This document shows, one piece after another, positions 22,175 to 23,551 of a DNA stretch of 35,787 bases. The DNA is from an uncultured archaeon. GTDB lineage: Archaea > Halobacteriota > Halobacteria > Halobacteriales > Haloferacaceae. The position numbers and the translations under genes were made by a program. The notes below the pieces were generated by a model that did no database searches, had not been told where the DNA came from, and worked only from the letters and a program-made list of their open reading frames with translations. How positions within the stretch are numbered: position 1 is the first letter of the stretch; each line of letters opens with the position of its first letter. Where the stretch lies: NCBI GenBank assembly GCA_937138675.1, contig CAKZPG010000021.1, forward strand, positions 1 through 35,787, read 5' to 3'.

Positions 22175-22633
22175 GTGCGGGTTCTCGACGCATCTGCGTT
22201 CGTCCACGACTACACCACCGAGGACCAGACGGCCTCGGTCCCCGAGGTGGCCGAAGAGCTAACCGGCGAGACGGCCTATCAGTTTGACGCTCTGACCGGC
22301 GCCGGGATGCGCGTTCACGTCCCTGCCGACGAGGCGGTGGTGCGTGTTCGCCGTGCAGCGGGCGACACGGGTGACGACGGCGTTCTCTCCCGGACCGATC
22401 GCCGCCTGCTCGCTGCCGCGCTCGAACTCGACGCCGTTCTCGTTACCGACGACTACGCCGTCCAGAACGTCGCGGAGAAACTCGATCTTGAGACGGAGGT
22501 GATCGCCCGCGACGGCATCGCAGAGCGTCGAGACTGGCGGTTCCAGTGCCAGGGCTGTGGCCGCGAGTTCGACGACGACGAAGGCCGGTGCCCGATCTGC
22601 GGGTCGGAGCTAACCCGTAAGAACCCGAATTAA
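22175..22633 (+). CDS. nob1: rRNA maturation endonuclease Nob1 (PIN domain plus zinc ribbon)
   Basis: GTG start 1 nt after the PRC-barrel stop; VRVLDASAFVHDY, LVTDDYAVQNVAEKL, zinc ribbon CQGCGREFDDDEGRCPICGSEL. Confidence 0.92.
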   Translation: MRVLDASAFVHDYTTEDQTASVPEVAEELTGETAYQFDALTGAGMRVHVPADEAVVRVRRAAGDTGDDGVLSRTDRRLLAAALELDAVLVTDDYAVQNVAEKLDLETEVIARDGIAERRDWRFQCQGCGREFDDDEGRCPICGSELTRKNPN

Positions 22634-22655
22634 TAATATTTGCAAAAGAGATGTA

Positions 22656-22670
22656 GGAGTGGGCCACTCC
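22656..22670. repeat. Short palindrome GGAGTGG-G-CCACTCC at the left edge of the tnpB relic
   Basis: Read directly; 7-bp arms abutting the relic frame. Confidence 0.75.
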
Positions 22671-22798
22671 GAATCAACGCCTGTGGAGACTGCGCTCCCT
22701 GCGGATACACCTGTGTCTGCAAAGCGCGTCATGGAAACAGGAAGCCTCACCCTCAAGGAGCGAACCGCGTCAGCGGTGAGCGAGTAGGGTGGGGTAGT
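22671..22798 (+). mobile_element. IS200/IS605-family relic: C-terminal tail of a TnpB (IS1341-type) coding sequence plus right end
   Basis: Frame 22671-22787 reads ESTPVETALPADTPVSAKRVMETGSLTLKERTASAVSE*, the recurrent C-terminus of haloarchaeal TnpB as I recall it, followed by gGTGGGGTAG. No RuvC or zinc-finger part remains. Confidence 0.7.
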
Positions 22799-23551
22799 TC
22801 ACACCGTGCCTGTCGCGGTCATATACTGGATGGCGAACAGCGTCGCGTTGTAGAGACCGTGGGCGCCCGCCGGCACCAACAGGTTCTCCGTCAGCTCGTA
22901 GGCTGTGCCGAGAACGATGCCAAGCGTCGCTGCAACCACGAGGTAGGTCACCTGCGACCCGGCCCCACCGAGCGCGAAGAGGTGGACAGCGCCGAAGCCG
23001 GCGCTCGCGAGCACAACTGCCGGCACCGGCCCCCACGCTCGCCGGAGAATGCCTTGGAGCCCGCCGCGGAAGACGAGTTCCTCAAACGGCCCCACGAGGA
23101 GGATGGAGACGGGAATCATCCACAAGAAGAAGGTCGGGTCATCACGCCCCGCCGCGATCACCTGATTCTGTGCCACATCGACGCCGAGACGGGAGAGTAC
23201 CTGCCCGATGAGTGTCGCGGCGACGAGAAGAACGAGGAGACCGGCGACGAGATAGCCTGCGTCGTGGGTGCTGGGCGCGCGCAGGCGGTCGGCGACGAGG
23301 CCCCAGTCGTCGGTCACGCCGAGGTAGGCGGCGACACCGAGGCCAAATCCGAGGAACTGTGCGCCGCTCACGAGAATCCGGTAGGCGAGCGATTCGGTTC
23401 CGAGGTTGGCGACCTGGAGGGCGAAGTCGGCAAGGCTCGCTGTTAGCACCGCGCCGAAAAAGGCGACTAAGACAACGACGGCACCTTTGCCGAGGGCGAC
23501 CAGTCGCTCTATCGCCGCGTCCGACCGGTCGCCGACAGCCTCCTCTGGCAT
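22799..23551 (-). CDS. CPBP-family intramembrane metalloprotease (Rce1/CAAX-like)
   Basis: Motif 1 GPFEELVFRGGLQGILRR, later HLFALGG and GAHGLYN; multiple TM. Confidence 0.88.
   Translation of the reverse strand: MPEEAVGDRSDAAIERLVALGKGAVVVLVAFFGAVLTASLADFALQVANLGTESLAYRILVSGAQFLGFGLGVAAYLGVTDDWGLVADRLRAPSTHDAGYLVAGLLVLLVAATLIGQVLSRLGVDVAQNQVIAAGRDDPTFFLWMIPVSILLVGPFEELVFRGGLQGILRRAWGPVPAVVLASAGFGAVHLFALGGAGSQVTYLVVAATLGIVLGTAYELTENLLVPAGAHGLYNATLFAIQYMTATGTV

Follow-up and report, generated by a model that had tools for sequence, protein, structure and literature searches.

Closest described systems and features of the locus

In the described omegaRNA layout, the right end of the element closes the RNA scaffold, the guide lies beyond this end, and the RNA is processed from mRNA (PMC10278001). 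For haloarchaea, expression of sotRNA/omegaRNAs was reported in Halobacterium (PMC12558985), PATEs and terminal-only elements were described in Haloquadratum (PMC3119063), and strong expression of the 3' part of a PATE is known from a Halorubrum virus (PMC10544981).

The window analyzed in this work, i.e., the whole stretch of 35,787 nucleotides, corresponds to C21, one of the 120 contigs in a draft haloarchaeal MAG (1.86 Mb, 80.6% complete). The closest relatives compared, contigs of the uncultured archaeon A07HB70 and the Haloferacaceae archaeon LUM.66, belong to the same genus. Between two convergent genes, the window carries the tnpB 3' tail and right end of a truncated ISHma12-like element, and the locus comprises the following features (slashes mark junctions here and below):

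22175-22633, + strand: nob1-like gene (PIN domain and zinc ribbon), upstream neighbour (Pfam PF17146 PIN_6, E 1.5e-10)
22634-22648, + strand: unique left flank TAATATTTGCAAAAG, with the left end of the element absent (sequence; left-end pattern)
22649-22802, + strand: ISHma12-like IS200/IS605 element, truncated to the tnpB 3' tail and right end (identity to the tnpB tail of contig C80)
22650-22787, + strand: in-frame TnpB C-terminal peptide DVGVGHSESTPVETALP...ASAVSE with stop TAG (translation; continuous with GLE/DVGVG of the C80 TnpB)
22654-22802, + strand: omegaRNA-like scaffold with a 5' hairpin (22656-22670), central nested hairpins and a right-end stem (fold and covariation)
22798-22802, + strand: conserved element terminus TTCAC, on the reverse strand GTGAA, with TGA in a fixed frame (copies from other genomes)
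22799-22801, - strand: TGA stop codon of the CPBP gene, supplied by the element (element-free orthologues stop at the same residue)
22799-23551, - strand: CPBP/Rce1-like membrane protease gene, convergent neighbour (Pfam PF02517, E 2e-18)
22803-22818, + strand: predicted guide position, antisense to the final codons of the CPBP mRNA (position relative to the right end; rule from PMC10278001)

As in the omegaRNA/sotRNA loci of Halobacterium, a structured scaffold lies over the tnpB 3' end and closes at the right end with the guide position outside; the window copy differs in having no tnpB upstream and a scaffold without an Rfam family. With ISHma12-like elements (tnpA-tnpB or tnpB only) it shares the tail, the right-end stem, the TTCAC terminus and the TnpB frame, whereas tnpA, the tnpB core and the left end are missing. 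In Halorubrum ezzemoulense, a 90% identical tail adjoins annotated TnpA and TnpB of the ISHma12 family.

The window copy also resembles PATEs (PMC3119063), as a tnpB-less derivative with a right-end palindrome and an RNA scaffold. Such PATE-like copies are frequent in its own genome and in three further ones (G018, G005, and G006); the noncoding classes found here correspond to PATEs and terminal-only elements, and tnpB-less scaffold copies are a known, widespread kind. However, PATEs have palindromes near both ends and the window copy at the right end only, and the tnpB stop is missing in 17 of 20 noncoding tails, whereas the window copy retains its TAG. The single end and the retained stop therefore indicate direct derivation from a tnpB element, and truncation of a tnpB element is the best reading of the copy. 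As a locus, it is an ordinary relic.

Identity and limits of the tnpB remnant

Positions 22649-22802 match the tnpB tail of contig C80 in 153 of 154 bases (E = 1e-74), the sole mismatch being at 22764, and about 40 further copies occur genome-wide. The 38-codon frame of the window, ESTPVETALPADTPVSAKRVMETGSLTLKERTASAVSE followed by a stop, has its C80 counterpart in ...ASWNILFSGLE/DVGVGHSESTPVETALPADTPVSAKRVMETGSLTLKERPASAVSE and a stop, i.e., the in-frame end of the TnpB gene. Since homology begins at the GLE/DVG codon boundary, after 15 unique bases past the nob1 stop, the orphan TnpB tail proposed in the original prediction is real. Its span had been given as 22656-22798; a remnant does lie there, with true limits of 22649-22802. 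What remains of tnpB are the final 45 codons, complete tnpB and tnpA are absent from the locus, and the 154-bp remnant is too short for transposase coding. We likewise found no RuvC or zinc-ribbon TnpB coding upstream of the tail, as had been stated; the gene there is nob1-like, and its stop lies 15 bases before the breakpoint.

The left-end pattern (TTAGCTG...AGGCGCTAAG) has no match on contig C21, against 20 in the genome. A left end resembling that of copy L046 in the window flank (common TATTTGCAA) was considered and dropped, the shared stretch being too short. Of the IS200/IS605 right end, both the subterminal hairpin and the conserved terminus are present: GGTGGGGTAG runs into TTCAC, a terminus kept in 82 of 86 copies from other genomes and in most of the 44 copies within the MAG. 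Tails of at least 90% identity were found across haloarchaea, and 124 haloarchaeal plasmids match the tail, with many of the CDS annotated as RNA-guided endonuclease TnpB or as transposase. No match was found among 50,697 phage records, and a Pfam search of the tail peptide returned no family. It was also observed, post hoc and for this single event, that the scaffold start common to the noncoding elements is 5 bases past the breakpoint at 22649. As the tail is repeated in the genome, some residual chance remains, in a draft MAG, that the left junction is an assembly artefact, while the nob1-CPBP synteny backs both flanks.

This synteny is seen in A07HB70 and LUM.66, the only two useful loci in a CPBP scan of genome contigs, where the convergent nob1 and CPBP genes are adjacent and the element is absent. 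In these rather distant congeners, the CPBP proteins (about 65% identity, stop codon TAG) end at the same residue as that of the window (...ATGTV against ...ATGLV). The end of the relic had been said to abut the CPBP stop; instead, the TGA sits within the element, because TTCAC is the element's own terminus. The remnant certainly supplies the stop codon of CPBP and the start of its 3' UTR. On the other side, the scaffold starts 15-20 bases past the nob1 stop and would fall in the nob1 3' UTR. An AT-rich tract (TAATAATATTTGC, 22631-22643) lies just 5' of the scaffold in this 65% GC genome, a possible terminator of nob1 or TATA-like element.

Target site and proposed history

Since the window copy has no left end from which its target site could be read directly, the target rule was taken from relatives of other species. 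The left-end consensus in many genomes is TTAG/CTGAAT..AGGCGCTAAG. A filled site of Halobacterium sp. DL1 (..AATTAG/1671-bp element..TTCAC/CGGAGGCGG) and an uninterrupted empty site of Natronosalvus rutilus (..GATTAG/CGGAGTCGG), in which the annotated ATPase stop TAA lies within TTAG, form a pair and thus show insertion directly 3' of TTAG with no duplication. For the convergent gene, insertion turns xxC-TAA into xxG-TGA. A joined-flank search for an ISHma12 empty site, starting from H. ezzemoulense, found none. TTAG reads as CTAA on the opposite strand, i.e., as a stop, which makes TAA the most likely original stop of CPBP.

We consider it highly probable that an ISHma12-like insertion at a TTAG of the CPBP end, with a stop swap from TAA to TGA, was followed by loss of the left end and the tnpB core. 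A tnpB-bearing element would have inserted 3' of TTAG at the end of the CPBP gene, and its TTCAC terminus would have exchanged the stop for TGA in the same frame, with the protein unchanged. We infer both the original TTAG/TAA at the window site and a later deletion, which would have removed the left end and the nuclease core up to GLE/DVG and left the scaffold and right end. The CPBP stop TAG of the distant congeners A07HB70 and LUM.66 speaks against this history. The remnant cannot be mobilised in the usual way, because the left end is missing.

Stop-codon replacement by the family

The use of the terminus as a stop was examined in 46 copies, i.e., 44 pattern matches and two additional copies, at least one of the weakest of which (C4, TTGAC) is probably a chance match; genes were represented by ORFs of at least 100 codons. 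Such an ORF runs into the TGA of the terminus in 26 of the 46 copies; the other two frames have 5 and 6, and 25 of the 32 longest ORFs use the TGA frame (binomial p = 2.7e-7). In a few copies of the MAG the terminus is TTTAC, so that the stop in this frame is TAA. In all 11 genes that could be checked against A07HB70 or LUM.66 orthologues, the C-termini differ by at most one residue (one of them by a weak alignment, and the L029 and L021 genes outside the scoring). In the relatives checked, the translation release factor aRF1 has its C-terminus at an identical position, often with GTC-TAA, and at six independently annotated plasmid loci the convergent CDS stops inside TTCAC. The family can thus occupy gene ends with proteins unchanged, because the element hands the gene a new stop.

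The enrichment at stops is probably a matter of survivorship and not of insertion preference, i.e., insertions into TTAG within genes would be selected against, while those at stops are spared by TTCAC. The TTAG target, the 65% GC of the sampled regions of the MAG, and the weakness of the bias in other, larger genomes all point this way. Pooling of the other genomes gave no significant frame bias (12 of 86 copies vs 10 and 4, p = 0.11); a bias common to all genomes was accordingly rejected, and survivorship in a compact genome becomes the likelier cause of the strong bias observed here. Against this, the excess persists over TTAG sites outside ORF interiors (26/46 vs 30/109, p = 6e-4), with a rough null taken from element surroundings. 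Survivorship concerns the cause of the enrichment only and is compatible with the insertion and stop swap proposed above.

The part of interest to a specialist is this stop-swapping rule, in which TTAG is both the insertion target and an opposite-strand stop, and the TTCAC end re-creates a stop in frame. The rule would account for the build-up of elements in a compact genome with proteins undamaged, and it implies that the natural guides of these TnpBs are often antisense to the final codons in conserved genes; the literature searched (mostly open papers, with ISfinder outside the scope) contains no description of it.

Conservation of the RNA scaffold

On the + strand, the predicted fold of 22654-22802 has -68.8 kcal/mol (z = -4.0), and none of 200 shuffles was equally stable. 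The window structure was laid over 50 tails from about 20 genomes, about 20 of these tails being copies without adjacent tnpB coding. Its 45 pairs are paired in 93.5% of cells, and two-sided changes occur in 22 of them, a level attained by none of 500 shuffles; two-sided cells number 143 vs 38 expected from shuffles. Slid versions of the structure score below the true register over the same 50 tails, although a structure derived from one of the aligned sequences is favoured over slid versions by that alone; an independent consensus fold agrees with it. In the noncoding copies, helices 1-4 are paired in 95-98% and helix 5, the looser one, in 78%. All modelled pairs are intact in the window copy. 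The locus therefore has one feature of omegaRNA genes, a conserved and structured scaffold that terminates with the right end of the transposon, and a search of Rfam over the region gave a chance match only, with no family covering the scaffold.

The original prediction that this relic keeps the scaffold without the nuclease is borne out by the complete fold and by the covariation among its relatives. The relic is not unique in this, as about 20 full-length nuclease-less copies were sampled. These tnpB-less copies with a conserved scaffold constitute a natural set for the question of guide RNAs acting in trans.

The sole present role of the remnant may be structural, a reading to which we give slightly less than an even chance: it would provide the CPBP stop and a stable 3' hairpin that maybe ends or protects the nob1 and CPBP mRNAs. 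The CPBP stop codon within the element, the strong right-end stem (about 10 pairs) and the many copies placed exactly at gene ends are in its favour; archaeal terminators, however, are usually T-rich tracts.

Candidate guide and a compatible TnpB

The predicted guide begins at 22803 (ACCGTGCCTGTCGCGG...), five bases after the start originally put at TTCAC, which belongs to the element. Elsewhere in the genome, every match to the 16-base predicted guide carries 2 or more mismatches, and some sites with 2-3 do occur.

A TnpB with the same tail, whose presence in the genome was to be looked for, is encoded on contig C80 (tail 99% identical), so the tail does resemble a tnpB 3' end. The C80 TnpB carries the Pfam OrfB_IS605 and TNB domains (PF01385 and PF07282), and its N-terminus is cut solely by the contig end. 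Its RuvC residues D, E, and D are conserved in an alignment with the ISDra2 TnpB (8bf8, E 1.3e-30), where we take them to be the catalytic residues. Judged from its sequence, this protein is compatible with a role as candidate TnpB for the scaffold. No Y1 transposase was found in a search of the whole 80.6% complete MAG. Any guide RNA from the window would likely originate from nob1 read-through and subsequent processing by a TnpB encoded elsewhere, e.g., on C80, and the candidate complex would have the CPBP allele without the insertion (TTAG + ACCGTGCC...) as its target.

It is nevertheless unlikely, though worth considering, that the relic now serves as a putative orphan guide-RNA gene, whose CPBP-derived guide would act in trans through another TnpB (the candidate complex then acting on uninserted alleles) or as an antisense on CPBP. 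The scaffold with every modelled pair intact, the C80 TnpB with its conserved residues and nearly identical tail in the same genome, the RNA structure retained by tnpB-less copies elsewhere, the AT-rich tract just upstream, and the expression known for the Halobacterium sotRNA/omegaRNAs (PMC12558985) and the Halorubrum virus PATE (PMC10544981) speak for such a gene. Against it stand the loss of the left end, the absence of a second close genomic target for the predicted guide, and the presence of a single recent copy, in which a selection signal is not measurable.

A broader scheme appears less likely again: the scaffold captured in the nob1 3' UTR would provide a trans TnpB guide directed to the TTAG stop of CPBP, as one case of lineage-wide homing to stop codons as target/TAM, with stops restored at no cost. 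Such homing by an IS605 lineage can be likened to integrases that rebuild tRNA genes. Finally, the tail has practically no chance of being a short host gene or chance sequence instead of a transposon relic, its open 38-codon frame notwithstanding, and a small host gene at 22649-22802 was ruled out by the repeat evidence, i.e., about 45 genome copies, together with near-identity to a TnpB tail and a peptide without a Pfam family.

Copies of the family within the genome

The right-end pattern hit the MAG 44 times and its reversed control once; for the left-end pattern, the numbers were 20 and 0. About 45 right ends occur in the 1.86-Mb MAG. The copies fall into three classes: tails attached to tnpB (among them those on C80 and C96), noncoding elements that carry this tail and measure several hundred bp (e.g., L029 of 449 bp and L017 of 478 bp), and minimal elements, about 70-86 bp long, that consist of little beyond both ends.

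Minimal elements of 69-74 bp were seen on contigs C34, C9, C63, C5, and C20 (L036, L040, L035, L039, and L042), often between convergent genes, and in these both neighbours can draw their stops from the element borders. At L035, the left ORF (443 codons) ends in TTAG and the right ORF (231 codons) in TTCAC. A possible second subfamily has the left end TTAACTATTTTCAGGCGCTAAG (C27, C57, and C37) and a right end ...GTTTAC (C37, C62, C64, and C82), and in its terminus TAA replaces TGA with the frame unchanged.

Several copies appear rearranged. At L013 (5996-6459), TnpB coding and a second tail come immediately after a tail copy, an arrangement that looks like one element inside another. At L014, the TnpB C-terminal region is broken about 100 bases upstream of the tail by a short inverted-repeat insertion (GTCGTCAGACTACGTCTGACGG...GCAAAATCGCTACGCGATTTTGC). 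The copy at L010 appears to interrupt a gene, as the best A07HB70 match runs about 358 residues further.
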